Part shown: positions 1,857-9,976 of the stretch, piece after piece | How positions within the stretch are numbered: the first letter of the stretch is position 1 | Layout: each line of letters begins with the position of its first letter | Source of the DNA: a virus | Strand: one strand, 5' to 3' | DNA: 35,706 bases | Virus record (IMG/VR): IMGVR_UViG_3300020172_001970 | Span: 1 to 35,706 of that record | Position numbers and translations under genes: made by a program | Notes under the pieces: model-generated | Told to the model about the DNA's origin: nothing | The model's database searches: none | Seen by the model: the letters and a program-made list of their open reading frames with translations, nothing else

Positions 1857-1884
1857 GTAGTTGGGACGGCAATCCGCGAACTAC
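1857..1884 (-). promoter_or_regulatory. structured leader hairpin of endonuclease gene 1 (copy 1)
   Basis: Read on the minus strand, a 6-bp outer stem GTAGTT/AACTAC closes an inner GGA/TCC stem with loop TTGCCG. The same 28 bases recur exactly at 9936-9963, and a variant with compensatory stem changes lies at 5845-5875. The outer stem begins 5 bases after the late-promoter octamer, which is where a T4-type late transcript would begin, so the hairpin would be at the very 5' end of the mRNA. It could instead be a DNA operator for autorepression. Confidence 0.6.
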
Positions 1885-1889
1885 ACCCT

Positions 1890-1897
1890 TATTTATC
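1890..1897 (-). promoter_or_regulatory. T4-type late promoter GATAAATA
   Basis: The octamer GATAAATA on the minus strand differs from the T4 late promoter TATAAATA only in the first base. It lies about 58 bases upstream of the endonuclease start at 1831 and directly before the conserved leader hairpin. Late promoters of this kind are recognised by a gp55-like sigma factor with the sliding clamp; neither is in this window. Confidence 0.65.
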
Positions 1898-1936
1898 CTT
1901 ACCTATATTATATCATAAATTGAATTGAATGTAAAA

Positions 1937-1944
1937 TATAAATA
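1937..1944 (+). promoter_or_regulatory. T4-type late promoter TATAAATA
   Basis: Exact match to the T4 late promoter octamer, 22 bases upstream of the ATG at 1967. By T4 spacing the transcript would start near 1950, inside the left arm of the hairpin at 1944-1968. Confidence 0.6.
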
Positions 1945-1968
1945 TTGTAGTTATTAAGGAACTACAAT
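1944..1968 (+). promoter_or_regulatory. hairpin with the ribosome-binding site in its loop
   Basis: A perfect 9-bp inverted repeat, ATTGTAGTT (1944-1952) and AACTACAAT (1960-1968), leaves a 7-base loop ATTAAGG that holds the Shine-Dalgarno bases, while the first two bases of the start codon at 1967 are in the right arm. Transcripts coming from upstream would carry the whole hairpin; late transcripts starting near 1950 would lack most of the left arm. Confidence 0.5.
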
Positions 1969-2170
1969 GCGAGATTTACTCGATTTACTAGAAGCAAAAT
2001 CAAAATGCCAGACACCTGGTGCCAATTATAAATTTGAAACACACGGTAAGAAAGTAATTTCTACTGTAACATTGCCATTTAATTTAGAACTAACCGAAAC
2101 CCAAGTTAAGAAACTTGAAGATGAATTACATGATGCATTGGAAGGTGTATTCAAACAATTTTTTAAATAA
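1967..2170 (+). CDS. small phage protein, unknown function
   Basis: A 67-residue protein (MRDLLDLLEAKSKCQT...) with no family I recognise. It is mixed in charge and soluble, with a probable C-terminal amphipathic helix (TETQVKKLEDELHDALEGVF). The start has AAGGA five bases upstream, set inside a hairpin loop, and is preceded by a perfect late-promoter octamer. It is the first gene of the run of small plus-strand genes after endonuclease 1. Expression is probably late. Confidence 0.7.
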   Translation: MRDLLDLLEAKSKCQTPGANYKFETHGKKVISTVTLPFNLELTETQVKKLEDELHDALEGVFKQFFK

Positions 2171-2172
2171 TA

Positions 2173-2201
2173 TTGACAACACCCTTTTAGTAATGTATAC
2201 T
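2173..2201 (+). promoter_or_regulatory. sigma-70 promoter
   Basis: TTGACA (2173-2178), 17-base spacer, TATACT (2196-2201). It lies in the short gap before the ATG at 2229 and starts 3 bases after the previous gene's stop codon. This is a consensus host promoter, so probably early. Confidence 0.8.
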
Positions 2202-2228
2202 ATCATCTAATTTAACTCAGAGAACATT

Positions 2229-2417
2229 ATGGAAACAATATTGGTATTTGTATTTGTATTAGTTGTATTAGTTGTATTTGGACTAATTCTTGTAATATCA
2301 GGCTGGGTATTTTTTTGGATGGAAAGTATATTCAACAACACATTCAAAGCTTGGCTGGCATCTATTTTATTAATGGAAAGCATACTTGGTTTAGTTTATG
2401 TTTATCTAAACTATTGA
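2229..2417 (+). CDS. small membrane protein, two helices
   Basis: A 62-residue, very hydrophobic protein. Residues about 4-30 (ILVFVFVLVVLVVFGLILVI and on) and about 41-60 form two likely membrane helices, separated by a short loop with aromatic and charged residues. It has no recognisable family. It has its own consensus sigma-70 promoter (2173-2201), which suggests early expression and a role in the host inner membrane; small early membrane proteins of T4-like phages often have accessory roles, but nothing here identifies one. Confidence 0.7.
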   Translation: METILVFVFVLVVLVVFGLILVISGWVFFWMESIFNNTFKAWLASILLMESILGLVYVYLNY

Positions 2418-2441
2418 CATTTCTATAAAAACTGCTATAAT
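2414..2441 (+). promoter_or_regulatory. sigma-70 promoter overlapping a stop codon
   Basis: TTGACA (2414-2419), 16-base spacer, TATAAT (2436-2441). The TGA stop of the preceding gene (2415-2417) lies inside the -35 box. It drives the gene starting at 2468. Confidence 0.82.
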
Positions 2442-2467
2442 ACATTTTTAGAATAATTAGGTACACT

Positions 2468-2662
2468 ATGCCATTTAAAAACGATTTAGAAGTATACCAA
2501 GCATTGATTGCAGGTGAAACTGTTGTAAGAACTGACGAATACAACTATATTCAATTTAAAATCATCAATGCTGATCTTAATAAATCATATGATTCAGGAA
2601 AAACATGGTGTTCATCGCACCTTGATGTTAAATCCTGTGTATTAGCGATCAAACCTGCTTGA
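2468..2662 (+). CDS. small phage protein, unknown function
   Basis: A 64-residue protein (MPFKNDLEVYQALIAGETVV...). I see no known domain. The layout (YQALIAGETVVR, then a hydrophilic stretch and WCSSHLDVKSCVLAI) resembles small phage proteins in which an aromatic-rich domain reads a short modified region, but no function can be assigned. It has its own sigma-70 promoter 5' and its TGA stop lies in the next gene's -35 box. No strong Shine-Dalgarno sequence is visible (only AGGTA). Confidence 0.68.
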   Translation: MPFKNDLEVYQALIAGETVVRTDEYNYIQFKIINADLNKSYDSGKTWCSSHLDVKSCVLAIKPA

Positions 2663-2687
2663 CATTTAACAAATAACCTGTTATAAT
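2659..2687 (+). promoter_or_regulatory. sigma-70 promoter overlapping a stop codon
   Basis: TTGACA (2659-2664), 17-base spacer, TATAAT (2682-2687). The TGA stop of the gene ending at 2662 is inside the -35 box. It drives 2715-2996 and probably the coupled genes that follow. Confidence 0.83.
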
Positions 2688-2714
2688 ACAATTTTAACAC
2701 ACTGAGATAAACTT

Positions 2715-2996
2715 ATGGCTATTGAAATCGAACAATCAATTGTTGACTCACTTAAAAATTTAATTGAACGAGAAGCATATAGCCGTTCTACACCAAACAG
2801 GGTTTTTGAAGAGCGATATGACTATTTAACTAGCACAATTAAGTATGAAGCTGCACAGGCTCAACTATTTTATGATGAGATTAAAGATGGTGGTTTAACA
2901 GCCAATACCATTGAAGCGGAAGGCTTTTTACGAGCTATGCGTGTGATAGAAGCAATAGTTGAAGATGCAAACGAAATCAACGATGACGAGGATTAA
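2715..2996 (+). CDS. small acidic phage protein, unknown function
   Basis: A 93-residue, acidic, probably all-helical protein with an acidic end (EIVEDANEINDDED-like). No family is recognised. A perfect sigma-70 promoter lies upstream. It begins a compact run of genes (2715-4181) with gaps of a few bases or short overlaps, so it is likely the first gene of an early operon. Confidence 0.75.
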   Translation: MAIEIEQSIVDSLKNLIEREAYSRSTPNRVFEERYDYLTSTIKYEAAQAQLFYDEIKDGGLTANTIEAEGFLRAMRVIEAIVEDANEINDDED

Positions 2997-2998
2997 TT

Positions 2999-3154
2999 AT
3001 GGAACTAATTAGAAATGTTTTGGTATCACTATTTTTTATGGTTGCAATAACTGCCTTAGTAATTGTTCTTGCATATGCAAAAATTGGTCCGGTTGAAAAT
3101 GCACCAACTGCTGAAACAACAGAAGTAGAAATTACCAAAGTTGCAGCACAATGA
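2999..3154 (+). CDS. small membrane protein, single helix
   Basis: A 51-residue protein: MELIRNV, one membrane helix at about 8-27 (VSLFFMVAITALVIVLAYA), then a polar acidic tail. It starts 2 bases after the preceding stop codon and its own TGA overlaps the ATG of the next gene (ATGA at 3151-3154), a sign of translational coupling. The tight packing is the main support. Function is unknown; the N-in, C-out topology is only inferred from the basic N-terminal end. Confidence 0.65.
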   Translation: MELIRNVLVSLFFMVAITALVIVLAYAKIGPVENAPTAETTEVEITKVAAQ

Positions 3155-3306
3155 ATCATTCAGAACCATTAGAAAGATGCCCTAAATGCAATGGGGCATT
3201 GCTTCATTTTAGATCAATGAATAAGAAATGTTGTTCTGATTGTAGAACTGAATTTGACTGGCATCTAAAAGAAAACCAGAAACCATTAATTCAACATCAA
3301 CGATAG
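3151..3306 (+). CDS. small zinc-ribbon phage protein
   Basis: A 51-residue protein with two cysteine pairs, CPKC (10-13) and CC..C (26-31), spaced as in a zinc ribbon, followed by an end FDWHLKENQKPLI. Short zinc-ribbon proteins with this kind of end are common in T4-like and other phages, where they are of unknown role. The start overlaps the previous stop (ATGA) and the next gene follows 2 bases after the TAG. Confidence 0.72.
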   Translation: MNHSEPLERCPKCNGALLHFRSMNKKCCSDCRTEFDWHLKENQKPLIQHQR

Positions 3307-3308
3307 AT

Positions 3309-3530
3309 ATGGCCCGACTATTTCAACTTCCAGGTACTAATGCTAATATAATTATCAATTTGGATCAAATTGTTTATGTTAAATCGCCTAGAATTATAAA
3401 TCTAGATGATCAAGATAAGCAATATACTATTGTTATGTCAACCGGGGAAGAATTTTTAGTGTATGACACAAATTATTGGCAAACCAATATGTATCCATAC
3501 GATAAGTTTATGAAACGGTGGGCTGGTTAA
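3309..3530 (+). CDS. small phage protein, unknown function
   Basis: A 73-residue protein (MARLFQLPGTNANIIINLDQ...) predicted to be mostly beta strand, with a pattern of a small barrel: INLDQIVYVKSP, then YTIVMSTGEEFLV. No known family. It is packed between the zinc-ribbon gene and 3532-3795 with 1-2 base gaps, so it is probably co-transcribed. Confidence 0.72.
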   Translation: MARLFQLPGTNANIIINLDQIVYVKSPRIINLDDQDKQYTIVMSTGEEFLVYDTNYWQTNMYPYDKFMKRWAG

Positions 3531-3531
3531 T

Positions 3532-3795
3532 ATGGCTAATGTTTATTACGAAATCTCTGATATATTTGTTGACAGTTATGGTGGGAAATACTTTTCTAGA
3601 TATAACTGTTTAACCACACCAGACAATAATATCGTAATCGATTTTAATTATAAATTAGTTATGGACTCGATTAGAATTTGGAGGCAAGATGGGAGTGAGG
3701 TGAGGTTTTTAAAAAATCATTATATTGACCCAAAACTAGCAATTGTTGATCCAGTTGAATTTACATTAATAGTATTGAAGAGTACGCCAATATGA
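3532..3795 (+). CDS. small phage protein, unknown function
   Basis: An 87-residue protein (MANVYYEISDIFVDSYGG...), beta-rich and similar in style to the preceding gene product. No family recognised. It starts 1 base after the preceding TAA and overlaps the next gene by 4 bases (ATGA at 3792-3795), so translation is probably coupled to the bL12-like gene. Confidence 0.72.
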   Translation: MANVYYEISDIFVDSYGGKYFSRYNCLTTPDNNIVIDFNYKLVMDSIRIWRQDGSEVRFLKNHYIDPKLAIVDPVEFTLIVLKSTPI

Positions 3796-4181
3796 CAGAA
3801 GAAACACTAGAAGATGTAATAAATGATGGCGTTATATTCGTTAGAAGCTTAACCAAACATTATGGTGCTGACAAGGCAATGGAGGTTTGGGAAGCTATGA
3901 ATGTAGCACTTGGTGAAGAAGTAAAAGGTCGGGTATTCTTCAAAATGATTGAAGGAAGTTCAGACAGTCAAGTGAAATTTAGATTAGGTAATATTAAAAA
4001 TTGGGGGAATCTGGTCACTGCGGTCAAAATAGTTCACCAATATACCGGTTTTAGACTTAAAGAATCAAAAGATTTGGTTTATGACTCTGAACATGTAATG
4101 AGTACCATTACGATTAGTGATTATCGCCAACGTATAGAATTTATGAGAGAGTTAGCGAACATCGGAGCTAAAATAGTGTAA
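3792..4181 (+). CDS. protein with ribosomal bL12 C-terminal-like domain
   Basis: A 129-residue protein. Residues about 60-129 follow the pattern of the bL12 (L7/L12) C-terminal domain: a strand (VKFRL), a helix (NLVTAVKIVHQYTG), the signature-like RLKESKDLV (88-96; bacterial bL12 has GLKEAKDLV), then a helix ending LANIGAKIV, as in bL12 LEEAGAEV. The N-terminal 60 residues are not the bL12 dimer domain. In bacteria this domain binds elongation factors at the ribosome stalk; phage-encoded bL12 homologues are known from aquatic phages. The fold match is visible by eye; ribosome binding here is inference. The start overlaps the previous stop codon. Confidence 0.68.
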   Translation: MTEETLEDVINDGVIFVRSLTKHYGADKAMEVWEAMNVALGEEVKGRVFFKMIEGSSDSQVKFRLGNIKNWGNLVTAVKIVHQYTGFRLKESKDLVYDSEHVMSTITISDYRQRIEFMRELANIGAKIV

Positions 4182-4195
4182 TTAAAAGGACAAGG

Positions 4196-4534
4196 ATGTC
4201 AAACATACAAATAACACAGCAAACAATTACCGCTAAACCAAGAAAATTAAAAGCCAGTTGGACTAAACAGGTACAAGAGGAAATAGATCTTGTAAAACAG
4301 GTACAAGAGGAAATAGACCGTCAAATTTTATGGGGTGTTCGTAAAACAACGGGGTGGCAAGAAGTAACACTTCCATATCCAATATATGGAATAACTAAAA
4401 ACATAATTAATAAATGGTGTTCAGAAAATTTAAAAGGTTCTGTTGACGGATATCGAGAGACGTGGATTTTTGAATTACCAGAAGATGCCACCTGGTTTAC
4501 ACTACGGTGGTTTGAACAAGAACAAGAAAAATAA
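4196..4534 (+). CDS. small conserved phage protein with internal duplication
   Basis: A 112-residue protein. The C-terminal part (TLPYPIYGITKNIINKWCSE ... GYRETWIFELPEDATWFTLRWF) is of a type seen in many T4-like phages, role unknown. The N-terminal part carries two copies of KQVQEEID in tandem, from a 30-base direct repeat (4265-4324). AAGGA lies upstream of the ATG at 4196. It has two tryptophan-rich stretches and no membrane segment. Confidence 0.72.
   Translation: MSNIQITQQTITAKPRKLKASWTKQVQEEIDLVKQVQEEIDRQILWGVRKTTGWQEVTLPYPIYGITKNIINKWCSENLKGSVDGYRETWIFELPEDATWFTLRWFEQEQEK
4265..4324 (+). repeat. 30-base tandem repeat, two copies
   Basis: Two adjacent 30-base units begin with AAACAGGTACAAGAGGAAAT at 4265 and 4295. 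The first 23 bases are identical, so the duplication is recent. It adds ten codons and keeps the frame. Confidence 0.9.
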
Positions 4535-4564
4535 AAAACTAATACTTAATTAAAAGGAATTAAT

Positions 4565-4876
4565 ATGAAATCAGTATATGTAATATATTATATAGACACC
4601 CACAATGATCTTATCGAGTGTGAAGTATTTTCTAAATTAGAATATGCTCAAAAATTTGAAGAAGATTTAGTACAATTATATGGGGATGAGGATGGAGTAA
4701 TTGGTTTTTTTCAAAAACCAATTGATATTATTAGTTGTACCAATAGAAATTCTAATGTAAATTCAGATACAGGTTATATTGCTGAAAGCAAATATGGTAC
4801 CCATATTTTGACCGGGGAATATATAAACATTGATCACGATTCCGACTTCTGGAATGATGACCAACCTGAACTTTAA
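4565..4876 (+). CDS. phage protein, unknown function
   Basis: A 103-residue acidic protein (MKSVYVIYYIDTHNDLIECE...). The start of the protein, a strand followed by a helix (SKLEYAQKFEEDLVQLYG), is ferredoxin-fold-like, as in many small phage proteins, but no family is recognised. The ribosome site AAGGAA is 7 bases before the ATG. It ends 21 bases before the tail of endonuclease 2 on the other strand. Confidence 0.7.
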   Translation: MKSVYVIYYIDTHNDLIECEVFSKLEYAQKFEEDLVQLYGDEDGVIGFFQKPIDIISCTNRNSNVNSDTGYIAESKYGTHILTGEYINIDHDSDFWNDDQPEL

Positions 4877-4897
4877 AAGAAAATTAACAATGACATC

Positions 4898-5818
4898 TTA
4901 TTTTTTGTATTTTCTGGTAATTCTAGAGGGGTTATCTTTGCATGATTTTATATGTCTAGTAATTCCTGGACCGTATCCAAACTGCTGTTGACAGAACTGA
5001 CATGTTTCTTTAGGAATAGTTTTACCTTTTAATGAAGAATCAATTTTTGATGGATTTTTATCACACATGGATTCATGGGATTTAATAACGTTTGACCCAA
5101 GTTCTTTGGAGCAAAAAATACAAATATCTAATTTGTAATCTGCTTTTACTGGTTTAGTCTTCTTATTTGGATTGTTTTTGCAATAATATGTTTCATGAAA
5201 TAAAACACCACTTCCCTTACTAAACACCATATTGCAATATTTACATTGAACCTTTGTAAAAGTTTTTCCAGTTAACTCATGAACTTTTTTATTTGGATTT
5301 TTATTACAACTGAGTTCATGTAGTTTTATTGCACTATTTATAGCGAATTTATCACCACAAAATTTACACGGTATTGTTTCATATATTTTTCCAAATGGTC
5401 CCCAATTATTTACTCCACTGGTTTTATTTAATAGTATTCCTGTATGTATATCAATTCTACCATAATGTTTTATTAAAATAATCTCGTACTCAGTAGCGGT
5501 ATCTTTTGAAATATTATCAGTGAAAATTATAATTAAATTTGAATTAGGTGTGTTTACGTTATTATGTTTTTCAGTAGGTCTACAAGCACGGCCTTCACCG
5601 ATATAATATAAACTACCCGCTGGACCAAATTCATCATCAAATTCACGTAAGTATCCGTATACACAACACCCGTTAATTTGCTGTAAACTATTGATAGGAA
5701 CAGGATTAAAATAATCTTTTACATCCTTTGGTAATTTTTTAATGTCTTCAACAAAAAAATTTGGCGATTGGTTGACATTATTATTAAACTGTGCTAAAAT
5801 ATAATTACTAAATAACAT
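4898..5818 (-). CDS. GIY-YIG homing endonuclease with four zinc fingers
   Basis: A 306-residue protein. Residues about 50-135 form the GIY-YIG nuclease: VYGY (53-56), YYIGEGRACR (71-80) with candidate catalytic arginines 77 and 80, a conserved glutamate in TATEYEI (110/112), and asparagine in LLNKTSG (131). The rest is a repeat of four Cys2-His-Cys fingers (C151/C154/H167/C171; C192/C195/H208/C213; C233/C236/H248/C252; C273/C276/H289/C293), each followed by NP, the likely DNA-reading part. The start at 5818 has AAGGAG 8 bases upstream. A late promoter and structured leader lie upstream, as for the other two endonucleases. The modular build is unusual; nuclease activity is inferred from motifs. 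Confidence 0.85.
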   Translation of the reverse strand: MLFSNYILAQFNNNVNQSPNFFVEDIKKLPKDVKDYFNPVPINSLQQINGCCVYGYLREFDDEFGPAGSLYYIGEGRACRPTEKHNNVNTPNSNLIIIFTDNISKDTATEYEIILIKHYGRIDIHTGILLNKTSGVNNWGPFGKIYETIPCKFCGDKFAINSAIKLHELSCNKNPNKKVHELTGKTFTKVQCKYCNMVFSKGSGVLFHETYYCKNNPNKKTKPVKADYKLDICIFCSKELGSNVIKSHESMCDKNPSKIDSSLKGKTIPKETCQFCQQQFGYGPGITRHIKSCKDNPSRITRKYKK

Positions 5819-5844
5819 TGTTGATGCTCCTTCAAAGCGTTAAA

Positions 5845-5875
5845 GTGGTTGGGAATTGGTAGTTCCGTGAACCAC
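5845..5875 (-). promoter_or_regulatory. structured leader hairpin of endonuclease gene 2 (variant)
   Basis: On the minus strand the outer stem is GTGGTT/AACCAC, the inner stem GGAA/TTCC. Relative to the copies at 1857-1884 and 9936-9963, the third outer pair is G-C instead of A-U and the inner stem has one more A-U pair, so pairing is kept although the bases differ. It starts 3 bases after the late-promoter octamer at 5879-5886. Confidence 0.6.
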
Positions 5876-5878
5876 ACT

Positions 5879-5886
5879 TATTTATC
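5879..5886 (-). promoter_or_regulatory. T4-type late promoter GATAAATA
   Basis: Octamer GATAAATA on the minus strand, 60 bases upstream of the endonuclease start at 5818 and next to its leader hairpin. Confidence 0.65.
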
Positions 5887-5911
5887 AAAATTAATCTATA
5901 AAGGGAATCAA

Positions 5912-6295
5912 ATGACACAAACAATAATCGAAGATCAACGTAAATTCATGTTAGCATGTGAACAAGATGTAGACACCTTCAATGAATCACAATATAATCT
6001 ATACTTGAATCTTATCAGAGAAGAATTCAACGAACTACAAGTTGCAATTGATGATAATAACTTGGTAGAAGTTACTGATGCAATTTTAGATATGATTGTA
6101 GTAGGTGTCGGAGCATTGTTATCAGCTGGGGTCGATGCTGAAGGTGCATGGAATGAAGTTATTCGTTCTAATATGAGTAAAATCGACCCAGAAACAGGTA
6201 AAGTTAAAAAACGGGAAGACGGCAAAGTGTTGAAACCAGCATCGTTCTCTCCACCAAATCTTGCACCATTTGTATCACATATCGTGGGGGAATAA
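5912..6295 (+). CDS. MazG-like nucleoside triphosphate pyrophosphohydrolase
   Basis: A 127-residue protein of the all-alpha NTP pyrophosphatase (MazG/PRA-PH) group, which splits NTPs or dNTPs to monophosphates and pyrophosphate; phage members are thought to alter host nucleotide pools or ppGpp. The metal-binding pattern is EEFNE (37-41) followed by E53, D56 and D60 in EVTDAILDM. The end SNMSKIDPETGKVKKREDG is typical of phage members. The ATG at 5912 with AAGGGAA upstream is preferred over an in-frame TTG at 5849, which lies in the endonuclease leader region. The lipoprotein gene follows directly. Confidence 0.88.
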   Translation: MTQTIIEDQRKFMLACEQDVDTFNESQYNLYLNLIREEFNELQVAIDDNNLVEVTDAILDMIVVGVGALLSAGVDAEGAWNEVIRSNMSKIDPETGKVKKREDGKVLKPASFSPPNLAPFVSHIVGE

Positions 6296-6667
6296 ATGAA
6301 AAAAATATTTATAACTATTGCATTATGTACTTTTATTACAGGATGCTCAACTATGTTCACTGGAACTACATCAAATGTTAATATTACTAGTACACCATCC
6401 GGTGCGGATTGTGAACTAGCTGGACATGGAGTTCATACTCCCGGAAATGTTGTTATTCCTAAGAGTAGTGCGAATTTAAATGTAAATTGCGAAAAACCTG
6501 GTTATATTCCGTCATCGGTTCCAGTGAATTCTACCTTCAATTCAACAACCTTAATTAATATTTTAACTGGATATTTTTTAATTATTGGAACTATTGTTGA
6601 TTTTGCATCTGGCGCGGCCTGGGAATATCCAAGCCATGTTAATGTTAATTTACCAAGCCAACAATAA
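6296..6667 (+). CDS. lipoprotein with PEGA-like domain
   Basis: A 123-residue protein with a lipoprotein signal peptide (MKKIFITIALCTFITGC) and lipobox ITGC, so Cys17 would be acylated. Residues 27-75 read like a PEGA beta domain (VNITSTPSGADCELAG ... CEKPGY). The end has a hydrophobic stretch (INILTGYFLIIGTIVDF) and SGAAWEYPSHVNVNL, as in Gram-negative envelope lipoproteins. The gene starts immediately after the MazG stop codon. It probably acts in the host envelope, for example in superinfection exclusion or lysis, but this is inference. It looks host-derived. Confidence 0.8.
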   Translation: MKKIFITIALCTFITGCSTMFTGTTSNVNITSTPSGADCELAGHGVHTPGNVVIPKSSANLNVNCEKPGYIPSSVPVNSTFNSTTLINILTGYFLIIGTIVDFASGAAWEYPSHVNVNLPSQQ

Positions 6668-6690
6668 TTAGTTAAAATAAAGAGGAATAT

Positions 6691-7533
6691 ATGGCACAAC
6701 ACTCAACATATTGGTCAAATTCAAAGATAGCAAAATGGTTGTCTGGTAGTGAAAAACCGGAATTTGCTACTGCACGTCAATGGCGTGAATGGAAAAAAGA
6801 AGCAAAAGCGAAACATCCTGTGAGATACTGGTTGGCGGAAGAAGGGTTAGGTAAACTTCAAGATATAGTTTATTGGCCTTATAACACATTTCATTCTTTC
6901 CGTTATTACATCAATAATCGTTGGGTGGTTAAAAGCCATGCTTTAACCGCACATCCAAAAGATATTAAACCAGGAAACTGGCAAGATGTTGGGTACCGTT
7001 TCTTGCCATGCTTGTTCAATGAATTAGTTGACTTTGTTGAAGTAGAAACTGCGTGGATGCATGTAGTTTGGGATAATGATGCCCGAAAAAAATATTGTGT
7101 TCCTTGGTGGAGAACTTCTTTTTTCAGATGGAGAACATGGCGCTGTCCAGAAGCTGGATTGGATTATTTAGATTGGGCTTCAAAGTTAACTAATGAAGAA
7201 TGGTGTGATAAAACCGATCCAGAATATGGACAACCAACCAATCAAGCATTAGCTGCTATGGAAATTAAAGAATTATATACATGGTGGAAAGAAGTATATC
7301 CAAATAGACCAGATCCATATGATGTAAGTGGATGGTCTGAAATTTGTAATAGAAAACGTCAAGGAAGTGATGATATTATGTCGCTATTTGATTACGATGA
7401 TGAAACACCGGAAGAACGAGCTGTACGATCTGCTACTCATGTACGATTGAGTGAAATTGAAGCTCAATATGAACAAGAAGAAGAAGATATGCTTGTTAGA
7501 TTGGTTAAAGTTAGAAAAAGTTTATGGACGTAA
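6691..7533 (+). CDS. conserved phage protein, unknown function
   Basis: A 280-residue protein very rich in tryptophan and aromatic residues in its first 200 residues (WREWKKEAKAKHPVRYWLAE, WRTSFFRWRTWRCP), followed by a charged, helical, acidic C-terminal end. The type is familiar from other large phages, where it is of unknown function. It has a good ribosome site (AGAGGAA) and overlaps the next gene by 10 bases. There is no membrane segment and no catalytic motif that I can name. Confidence 0.8.
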   Translation: MAQHSTYWSNSKIAKWLSGSEKPEFATARQWREWKKEAKAKHPVRYWLAEEGLGKLQDIVYWPYNTFHSFRYYINNRWVVKSHALTAHPKDIKPGNWQDVGYRFLPCLFNELVDFVEVETAWMHVVWDNDARKKYCVPWWRTSFFRWRTWRCPEAGLDYLDWASKLTNEEWCDKTDPEYGQPTNQALAAMEIKELYTWWKEVYPNRPDPYDVSGWSEICNRKRQGSDDIMSLFDYDDETPEERAVRSATHVRLSEIEAQYEQEEEDMLVRLVKVRKSLWT

Positions 7534-7712
7534 AACAATCTAAAAATTTTTGTACTTGTGGTAGTGAGCGTAAATACTGTCAACGACATGACGCTTACTA
7601 CTGCGAACTATGTAATAAATGGTTAGAACCAACATGTGATGACCCAGATTGTTGGTTCTGTCCAGATAGACCTGAGAAACCTAGTCAAATAATATATAAT
7701 CAAACAACATAA
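7524..7712 (+). CDS. small cysteine-rich zinc-binding protein
   Basis: A 62-residue protein with three Cys/His pairs: CTCGSERKYCQRH, CELC and CDDPDCWFC, so probably a small zinc finger with two sites. It overlaps the preceding gene by 10 bases in another frame, with AAAAAG-type sequence before the ATG at 7524. No function is known. Confidence 0.7.
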   Translation: MDVKQSKNFCTCGSERKYCQRHDAYYCELCNKWLEPTCDDPDCWFCPDRPEKPSQIIYNQTT

Positions 7713-7724
7713 CATGGAATTATA

Positions 7725-8915
7725 ATGGCAAAAGTAGCTAAAAAAACAAAGAAAACTAAAATTACTAGTGTCACTATACGTGAAAATCGTAATAAAGATT
7801 GGAGCCCACGTTGGGATGATACCGACTCATTATCTTCTACTGAGTTCTTAAAGCATTATCATAGTGCAATGCATTATTATAACATCCAATTTAGTGGTAA
7901 AGATCTAAAACCGGCAGTATTGACATGGATGAATGAGAATGGCTATGAAAAAGATGTCATCACCGAGTTTAAGAAATCAAAAGACTGGCGTGTAAGTACA
8001 ACGATGGGTGCAATAGCAAGTTGTTTATCCCGTGGTATGCCAGAACAACGTGATGATTTCAATAGTGGGACCAATACCAAAGAATGGTTAGTAAAAGCTA
8101 TTAATAAAGTAATTGAAGATAGCAAAAACGATGTTGAAGTTGATGAAGAAACAGAAACTAAACCAACCGCACCGGTTGTTAGCATCCAAGAACGGGTTCG
8201 TGAAGCAACATTCAAGATGACCGAAGAAATCGAAGATGCAATTGAAGTTTGGATGGAAACACCAGAAAAATTCGATCCAAAACAATTTAAAATACTTAAT
8301 CTACTCAAAGGTAAAGAAGTAAAAGCCGCTCATGCACGGGTTATTAAAGAGTATTACTCAGTTGGATTGAAAGAATTGTCAGATGTCATTGAAGGTAAAG
8401 ATGACGACCTTAAAGAGGGTTACAAACATCGAACTAAAAAGCAAATAAATAATTTATTAGCATTTTACAAGGAAATTGACTCAGCTTGTACTATGTTAAT
8501 GGAAGAAGCCAAGGTTTTACGTAAACCACGGGCTAAAAAAGCTGTTCCAAAAGACAAAATAGTGGAAAAACTCAAGTTTTTGAAGACTTTTGAACCATTA
8601 AAACTAGTATCAGTCAACCCAACCGATATTTTGGGTTCAAAAGAACTATGGATATACAACACTAAGACCAGAAAGCTTGGTAAATACATTGCTGATGATA
8701 TGACTGGTCCTCTTGGAATTAAAGGAACTACTATTATTGGTTATGATGAACATAAAAGTATTCAAAAAACCATTAGAAAACCAGATGAAAAACTCAAGGA
8801 ATTCAAATCAGCTGGGAAAATAGCTCTCAGGAAATTTTTAGATGATATCAATTCTACCGATACCAAAATGAATGGTAGAATTAATGAAGATATAATTCTA
8901 TTAAAGGTTTTGTAA
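7725..8915 (+). CDS. conserved phage protein, unknown function
   Basis: A 396-residue protein. It has a lysine-rich start (MAKVAKKTKKTKITSVTIRE), a first domain to about 130 (helical, with MHYYNIQFSGKDLKPAVLTW), an acidic linker, a helical middle (KEVKAAHARVIKEYYSVGLK) and a C-terminal domain with LWIYNTKTRKLGKY, IKGTTIIGYDEHKS and LRKPDE/LRKF-type patterns. Proteins with this ending are common in aquatic T4-like phages, unknown in role. Its position among early genes and its basic regions would suit nucleic-acid binding; this is a guess. A 14-bp inverted repeat follows the stop codon. Confidence 0.8.
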   Translation: MAKVAKKTKKTKITSVTIRENRNKDWSPRWDDTDSLSSTEFLKHYHSAMHYYNIQFSGKDLKPAVLTWMNENGYEKDVITEFKKSKDWRVSTTMGAIASCLSRGMPEQRDDFNSGTNTKEWLVKAINKVIEDSKNDVEVDEETETKPTAPVVSIQERVREATFKMTEEIEDAIEVWMETPEKFDPKQFKILNLLKGKEVKAAHARVIKEYYSVGLKELSDVIEGKDDDLKEGYKHRTKKQINNLLAFYKEIDSACTMLMEEAKVLRKPRAKKAVPKDKIVEKLKFLKTFEPLKLVSVNPTDILGSKELWIYNTKTRKLGKYIADDMTGPLGIKGTTIIGYDEHKSIQKTIRKPDEKLKEFKSAGKIALRKFLDDINSTDTKMNGRINEDIILLKVL

Positions 8916-8918
8916 AAT

Positions 8919-8956
8919 AATCGTATCATATAATGTAAATACTATATGATACGATT
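8919..8956 (+). promoter_or_regulatory. 14-bp perfect hairpin, terminator or start-codon control
   Basis: AATCGTATCATATA (8919-8932) and its exact reverse complement (8943-8956) flank the loop ATGTAAATAC. It starts 3 bases after the stop of the preceding gene and is followed by TTCTATTTTAATT. The loop contains TGTAAATA, 7 of 8 bases of the T4 late promoter, and the right arm contains the ATG at 8946. It may be a weak terminator or a hairpin that blocks translation of read-through mRNA. Confidence 0.5.
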
Positions 8957-9290
8957 TTCTATTTTAATTGAACAGCATAATAATGATATGCATAAAATTA
9001 ACGAACAACGTCGTTGGTGGTTATTTGCAAGTTCTATGGTGTTTTCCGGTGTTATTTTTTTAATTTTTGGCTGGGATTGGATATCTGAATTTAATCATAA
9101 ATCATTATGGTGGGTGATTATTTCACTAATGCTGATAATTTGTATGAATTGGTGGTATTGGACTATGAAAGTAATATCTCATTTATTAGTTCACCAGTGT
9201 TCTGAATATGACATGATAGCTGAATTATTGAATGAAATAAAAGAACTAAAAGAACATATCAAACAACTTTCTATTGACAACAAGCAATAA
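8946..9290 (+). CDS. membrane protein with coiled-coil tail
   Basis: Up to 114 residues: a charged N-terminal part, two membrane helices (about 25-43, WLFASSMVFSGVIFLIFGW, and about 54-75), and a helical C-terminal segment (IAELLNEIKELKEHIKQL) that looks like a coiled coil. The start is uncertain: the ATG at 8946 lies in the hairpin arm with no Shine-Dalgarno sequence. An ATG at 8988 (residue 15) is an alternative. No family is recognised; it may be an inner-membrane accessory protein. Confidence 0.7.
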   Translation: MIRFSILIEQHNNDMHKINEQRRWWLFASSMVFSGVIFLIFGWDWISEFNHKSLWWVIISLMLIICMNWWYWTMKVISHLLVHQCSEYDMIAELLNEIKELKEHIKQLSIDNKQ

Positions 9291-9359
9291 TCACGATATT
9301 ATACATTTTTTTCAACTTAAACAACCCAACCAATGAATAAAATAGGCTTTGCATGTAAA

Positions 9360-9899
9360 TTATTTTAGTTCAGGGGACACTTCAAAAAAGCAATGTTTTC
9401 TGCTGTATAATAAATAACATACATTTCTGCTAATACCATATTCTAAACTGATACTAGAATATGATTGACCATTATTCATTTTGGTAATAACTTCTTTATA
9501 TAAATAATAATTTTTTAAATTTTTTGTTCGAATTATTGTCATTCGTTTTTCGGATGAACAAGGGTTTGGTTTATTAAACATTGGATTATTAACACCAGTC
9601 CGGGATTCTGATGACACGGTTGCGCCACCATTACCGCCGAATGTGGTATTAACTAAAATTCCTCCGTCAATTATTCTACCATAGTGGGCAATAAGATGAA
9701 TTTCCAATTCCCAAGCTTCATTTTCGGTTAAATTCTCTTGTATAATTTGAATTCGTTGTGGATTTCTTGGGCGCAAATCACATCCGTTTTTTCTACGATG
9801 TGTTGCCCACGCTCGACGCTTTGAACCTTTGCCGATATAATATGGTGTTTGATTTTTGCGAATGTATTGGTAAACGTAATAAATATTGTTACTGGACAT
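9360..9899 (-). CDS. GIY-YIG homing endonuclease
   Basis: A 179-residue protein with a clear GIY-YIG core: YVY (8-10), YYIGKGSKRRAW (20-31) with candidate catalytic R28/R29, glutamate in EAWELEI (64/66) and asparagine in LVNTTFGG (84). It is followed by a part of a NUMOD3-like motif (NNPMFNKPNP) and a helix-turn-helix-like end (SSISLEYGISRNVCYLL). GGAGG lies 7 bases before the start at 9899. It is inserted antisense, with the same leader and late promoter as endonuclease 1. The predicted role is gene homing. Confidence 0.87.
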   Translation of the reverse strand: MSSNNIYYVYQYIRKNQTPYYIGKGSKRRAWATHRRKNGCDLRPRNPQRIQIIQENLTENEAWELEIHLIAHYGRIIDGGILVNTTFGGNGGATVSSESRTGVNNPMFNKPNPCSSEKRMTIIRTKNLKNYYLYKEVITKMNNGQSYSSISLEYGISRNVCYLLYSRKHCFFEVSPELK

Positions 9900-9935
9900 A
9901 ACAGTTCCTCCGAATTGTGATAAGATATGTTTAGA

Positions 9936-9963
9936 GTAGTTGGGACGGCAATCCGCGAACTAC
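9936..9963 (-). promoter_or_regulatory. structured leader hairpin of endonuclease gene 3 (copy 2)
   Basis: Identical over 28 bases to 1857-1884 (outer stem GTAGTT/AACTAC), and likewise 5 bases after the late-promoter octamer. The two endonucleases it precedes have different protein sequences and architecture, so the leader is better conserved than the genes. Confidence 0.6.
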
Positions 9964-9968
9964 ATCTT

Positions 9969-9976
9969 TATTTATC
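9969..9976 (-). promoter_or_regulatory. T4-type late promoter GATAAATA
   Basis: GATAAATA on the minus strand, 69 bases before the ATG of the endonuclease at 9899, abutting its leader hairpin. Confidence 0.65.

Follow-up and report, generated by a model that had tools for sequence, protein, structure and literature searches.

A two-hairpin element at the start of homing endonuclease genes in T4-like phages that may encode a late antisense RNA

The stretch of viral DNA examined here, the window, is 35,706 nt long and carries three homing endonuclease genes on its minus strand: gene 1 (1148-1831; 227 aa, NUMOD3, GIY-YIG-like), gene 2 (4898-5818; 306 aa, GIY-YIG-like with CxxC repeats) and gene 3 (9360-9899; 179 aa, GIY-YIG-like). 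A sequence-only reading had called all three GIY-YIG genes and had noted a late promoter box and a hairpin ahead of each. The likeness to homing endonucleases stands (NUMOD3, PHROG 314/655), but the three proteins remain below the threshold of the Pfam GIY-YIG model. The hairpins, here called hairpin 1, are real and lie where they had been placed on the minus strand (1857-1884, 5845-5875 and 9936-9963), as judged by folding and by matches to a covariance model, R1; copies 1 and 3 share one sequence, from which copy 2 departs in the way described earlier, with G-C for A-U in the outer stem and one more pair in the inner stem. The box GATAAATA was likewise recovered by a box search on the minus strand at 1890-1897, 5879-5886 and 9969-9976, as the predicted late promoter of endonuclease genes 1, 2 and 3 respectively. 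Folding energies of hairpin 1 in the window (-8.9 and -8.4 kcal/mol) were equalled by 4 of 200 shuffles, and the hairpin pattern occurred in none of 100 shuffles. Model R1, whose seed of 75 relatives included two window copies and left the third outside, scored the three copies at 85, 74 and 61 bits.

These hairpins are only half of a larger element, two parts of which had been overlooked. The first is a covarying hairpin 2, set between hairpin 1 and the start codon, where it takes in the Shine-Dalgarno sequence; in copy 1 it occupies 1833-1855 on the minus strand, with the Shine-Dalgarno GGAG at 1841-1844, as placed by the R1 alignment and pair counts. The second is a conserved TATTTA at the start of each coding sequence. 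Read on the plus strand this is TAAATA, a predicted late promoter of an antisense RNA, found at 1821-1826 within the octamer TATAAATA (1819-1826, inside the start of endonuclease gene 1), at 5809-5814 within ACTAAATA (5807-5814) and at 9880-9885 within AATAAATA (9878-9885). All three assignments draw on the sequence and the R1 match, which for copy 1 ends at 1821, and the first also on spacing statistics. The predicted +1 positions are 1832, 5820 and 9891, and matches of the antisense model, R2, start exactly there. Antisense RNA 1 is predicted on the plus strand at 1832-1884, with hairpin 2' followed by hairpin 1' (R2 1.3e-15; fold -16.4 kcal/mol), antisense RNA 2 at 5820-5875 (R2 1.3e-16; -16.6 kcal/mol) and antisense RNA 3 at 9891-9963 (R2 7.9e-9; -20.3 kcal/mol), the last having a long hairpin-2' loop that spans the Shine-Dalgarno sequence and the AUG. 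The window also contains two perfect sigma-70-type promoters (TTGACA/TATAAT) among small plus-strand genes, at 2414-2441 and 2659-2687, and a sigma-70-like promoter (11/12) at 5772-5800, which lies inside endonuclease gene 2 in the antisense direction and reads across the element toward a PRA-PH-domain (pyrophosphohydrolase-like) gene.

Related copies number at least about 200, from IMG/VR together with one Rhizobium and one Variovorax phage isolate, and an alignment of 75 of them gives the shared layout TAAATA-N5-hairpin1-N-hairpin2-C-N5-TATTTA. The hairpin core was located in at least 119 stretches of IMG/VR, with at least about 80 copies having the full cassette, and a covariance-model search found 113 copies in 39 whole records, the highest copy number being 13 in each of two contigs (361 and 333 kb). 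The cultured phages in which it was found, Rhizobium phage RHph_I1_18 and Variovorax phage V45v66, have one copy each. Searches of the genomes of T4, Acidovorax phage ACP17, Sinorhizobium phage phiN3 and Aeromonas phage avDM2 found no element, and one pattern run against GTDB genomes gave no match. Rfam gave no match for the window at gathering score and none for the elements of eight loci at E up to 1, nor did the open-licence papers searched contain a description, in keeping with the earlier remark that the element was undescribed. Evidence for covariation of hairpin 1 was thin from three copies, but covariation is upheld across the roughly 200 related ones. It is strong in both hairpins, and in hairpin 2 was seen at five of the five pairs first counted; that stem continues through C50-G74 (TCTA with CAGC, TTTA with CAAC) and U51-A73, and pair 52-72 is A·C on the endonuclease strand in 148 of 149 cases. 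Hairpin 1 has an additional pair, R23-Y42, between two bulged C residues. Hairpin-1 loops within one genome differ no more than chance would have it (6 identical pairs against 7.1 expected), so that pair-specific recognition is not indicated.

Almost wherever the downstream gene could be identified it was a homing endonuclease or a remnant of one, and the families (GIY-YIG, HNH) are unrelated. Most of the 128 downstream proteins match homing endonuclease, HNH, NUMOD3 or GIY-YIG families, although only seven reach the Pfam GIY-YIG model, and several others are short reading frames resembling frameshifted endonuclease remnants. The proposed association with GIY-YIG genes thus holds, but HNH genes carry the element too. 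The relatives found in phage genomes covary and are endonuclease-linked, which bears out the suggestion of a covarying, transferable unit tied to endonuclease genes at late-promoter spacing. Some endonuclease genes in the same genomes are without it. At four loci (L216, L166, L217 and L261) the endonuclease gene is apparently frameshifted or truncated, yet element and antisense promoter are intact. The elements at two further loci (L269:7385-7441 and L303:1248-1304) precede a reading frame of 581 aa with no obvious endonuclease character, and there the sense TAAATA is absent. One phage contig has a permuted tmRNA match (92.5 bits; L034:3911-4304) directly adjoining an element, as well as a Polynucleobacter-1 RNA at 8395-8551 and a tRNA with anticodon CTA at 5169-5243. 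Of 33 records, 11 had Gp23 above the cut-off. A homologue of T4 gp55 was present in 10 of 23, both isolates included, while none was found in the 35,706 nt window fragment; these homologues indicate that the bearers are T4-like phages whose late transcription is of the T4 type.

The intermediate that a functional RNA helix usually tolerates is G·U, and an A·C on one strand is a G·U on the other. On the endonuclease strand of 150 distinct elements, which are related copies so that alignment cells are not independent, the mismatches were A·C 109 times, G·U three times and other combinations eight times, with the loop-closing pair and pair 52-72 omitted. All ten pair positions at which A·C and G·U differ lean the same way. 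The alignment had been fitted to the endonuclease-strand model, so the count is if anything biased against the antisense result. A second set of 52 distinct elements was retrieved through hairpin 2 and the antisense promoter, which left hairpin 1 free except for its last two bases; its antisense hairpin 1' has 22 G·U and no A·C (loop-closing pair omitted), while hairpin 2 is not independent in this set as its letters were fixed by the search pattern. RNAalifold gave -15.97 kcal/mol for the antisense strand of 123 sequences against -10.45 kcal/mol for the sense strand of the same sequences. In the antisense alignment 97.5% of cells are paired and both partners vary in 16 of the 19 pairs, a number reached by none of 500 shuffles. 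As the mRNA strand tolerates A·C and hardly ever G·U, selection acts on an RNA antisense to the endonuclease, and maintenance of the structure on that strand is well supported by these comparisons. Counts of this kind can reveal the working strand of an RNA.

The TATTTA motif lies exactly 5 nt past the element in 108 of 150 copies, and 145 have it no more than 12 nt from the hairpin, although the original hairpin-core scan had not selected for it; in the two isolates it is displaced to 12-14 nt. It occurs in all three reading frames (108/19/18), the start codon floating around it, and is therefore kept as DNA or RNA and not as protein. The first 20 nt of element-less endonuclease genes from the same genomes were without it in 20 of 20 cases. 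On the other strand it reads TAAATA-N5-purine, the layout of a T4 late promoter, and it looks like a late promoter for the antisense strand. On the sense side 122 of 151 copies have TAAATA at a distance of 5 nt from hairpin 1, and the base before it (A 109, C 13) is more constrained than that before its antisense counterpart (A 83, G 15, C 7, T 3). The marks of T4-type late promoters, a TATAAATA-like octamer at the -10 position and the gp55 sigma in the phage, are present, with TAAATA on both strands and the gp55 homologue in ten of the 23 records. With both promoters of the late type, timing gives no reason for one RNA to restrain the other. An extension of the TAAATA/TATTTA pairing beyond six pairs was considered and rejected, since it shows no covariation.

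Probably the best explanation of these observations is an antisense RNA, laid out like IS10 RNA-OUT or P22 Sar, that restrains translation of the endonuclease. Each element would be a small gene for an antisense RNA, nested within a homing endonuclease gene at its 5' end, with its T4-type late promoter TAAATA on the opposite strand at about codons 2-4 and the RNA starting five bases on. The RNA would be about 55 nt long with two conserved hairpins, possibly followed by read-through; the terminator scan after hairpin 1' flagged nothing and there is only a U-rich tail. It would be the complement of the endonuclease mRNA over the 5' leader and the Shine-Dalgarno region; that mRNA itself would start from the second, facing late promoter at the other end of the element. 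A Shine-Dalgarno-like tetramer lies within the element in 147 of 150 copies, and loop 2' would carry the anti-Shine-Dalgarno sequence with which the RNA most likely pairs with the mRNA. Such pairing could block ribosome binding or invite double-strand cleavage, and so keep the endonuclease low. Conservation of TAAATA at a fixed spacing and complementarity to the ribosome-binding site are well supported on present counts; transcription of the antisense strand, the precise 5' and 3' termini of the RNA, repression and physiological purpose are what we infer from the sequence. A wider proposal, that these late-promoter antisense RNAs form a widespread family, move as a cassette with unrelated endonucleases and act in trans between the many copies in a genome (up to 13), each selfish gene thereby restraining the others, is rather doubtful.

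The sequence-only reading had proposed a leader structure of the endonuclease mRNA that could protect the 5' end or regulate translation; in the form weighed here, hairpin 1 would shield the 5' end and hairpin 2 would throttle the ribosome-binding site. The sense TAAATA at 5 nt from hairpin 1 (122/151) and the overlap of hairpin 2 with the Shine-Dalgarno sequence fit such a leader, and ribosome-binding-site hairpins are known for T4 I-TevI and Aeh1 mobE (PMC2988022). However, the mismatches on the endonuclease strand are A·C and almost never G·U, which places the structure on the opposite strand, the fold on the endonuclease strand is the weaker one, TATTTA in three reading frames is left unexplained, and 9 of the 52 elements of the second set have no sense TAAATA. 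We therefore consider an mRNA leader unlikely. About as improbable is that the opposite-strand RNA is the 5' leader of the neighbour's late mRNA, the endonuclease bringing an outward promoter that repairs expression of the neighbour. Neighbour promoters inside T4 endonuclease genes have been described (PMC2988022), and 51 of 78 neighbouring genes share the orientation of the antisense RNA, but the other 27 run the opposite way with the element still intact, and neighbours in the window sit in a region with strong sigma-70-type promoters. Wobbles on the endonuclease strand were A·C 14 and G·U 0 where the neighbour runs with the endonuclease and A·C 41 and G·U 1 where it runs against it; this shared pattern indicates that the element does not depend on the neighbour, and antisense structure kept whichever way the neighbouring gene runs makes the leader of a neighbour unlikely.

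A terminator or insulator on the antisense strand, stopping transcripts that run against the endonuclease, would account for the U-rich stretch after the hairpin, but nothing terminator-like was flagged in the scan and a terminator needs neither invariant bulged bases nor an almost invariant U·G pair nor a fixed promoter spacing, so that we hold it very improbable. An I-TevI-type switch, in which read-through RNA pairs UAAAUA with UAUUUA to form a three-way junction over the start while the late mRNA is without the 5' half, has the precedent of I-TevI (PMC2988022) and the complementarity of two hexamers on either side of the hairpins. It is extremely unlikely, given that the base outside the hexamer does not covary, that the promoter shows no matching change in the three elements with TACTTA and that TATTTA persists where the sense TAAATA is missing. 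A DNA operator bound by the endonucleases, offered earlier on the model of I-TevI, which represses itself at its own late promoter (PMC2988022), is scarcely credible, as it predicts neither stems that vary freely with pairing kept nor strand-specific wobbles and the element is common to unrelated endonuclease families.

Antisense control of the endonuclease would have two close parallels. IS10 RNA-OUT is an antisense RNA of the transposase; its promoter points outward from within the gene of a mobile-element nuclease, at the 5' end, and the structured RNA spans the translation start. The element appears to share this placing of the promoter within its target gene and the structured antisense RNA over the translation start, and is unlike RNA-OUT in its two hairpins with bulged G residues, its late promoters on both sides and its many endonuclease families. 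P22 Sar is a short two-hairpin RNA of a temperate phage, antisense to the ribosome-binding site of ant. The predicted RNA of the element is similarly short, two-hairpinned and antisense to a ribosome-binding site, and differs in its target, in that P22 is temperate and in having no sequence match in Rfam. An opposite-strand promoter in the 5' end of the target is predicted, as a motif, in 145 of 150 elements, complementarity to the translation start region holds in 147 of 150, and wobble direction and fold energies make the antisense RNA the structured partner; membership of an Rfam family was not found (window at gathering score; eight loci, E up to 1). The sar gene of P22 is listed as an antisense regulator (PMC5415839). 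Restraint of homing endonucleases by mRNA hairpins and autorepression is already known; control by antisense RNA was not described in the open-licence papers searched. Here a structured antisense RNA, with two facing late promoters, appears to be a means of control common to many unrelated endonucleases of T4-like phages; it is testable in the two cultured phages, and the covariance model can be used for annotation.

Ribosome-binding-site hairpins occur at T4 I-TevI, I-TevII, I-TevIII and segB and at Aeh1 mobE, the T4 type being a single mRNA-strand hairpin present only in early RNA, half of which is removed by the late promoter (PMC2988022). The element resembles this group in that a phage homing endonuclease gene has both a late promoter and an RNA structure where it begins. 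Its sense promoter, however, is upstream of both hairpins and not within one, so that both lie wholly downstream, and they are selected on the other strand. In three element-less endonuclease genes (L240, L249 and L251) a late promoter sits within a hairpin beside the ATG whose pairing is perfect or nearly so (-27.8, -24.5 and -22.9 kcal/mol), as in T4 I-TevI and mobE. From these I-TevI-like hairpins at element-less genes of the same genomes, the phages seem to have solved a single problem in two ways.
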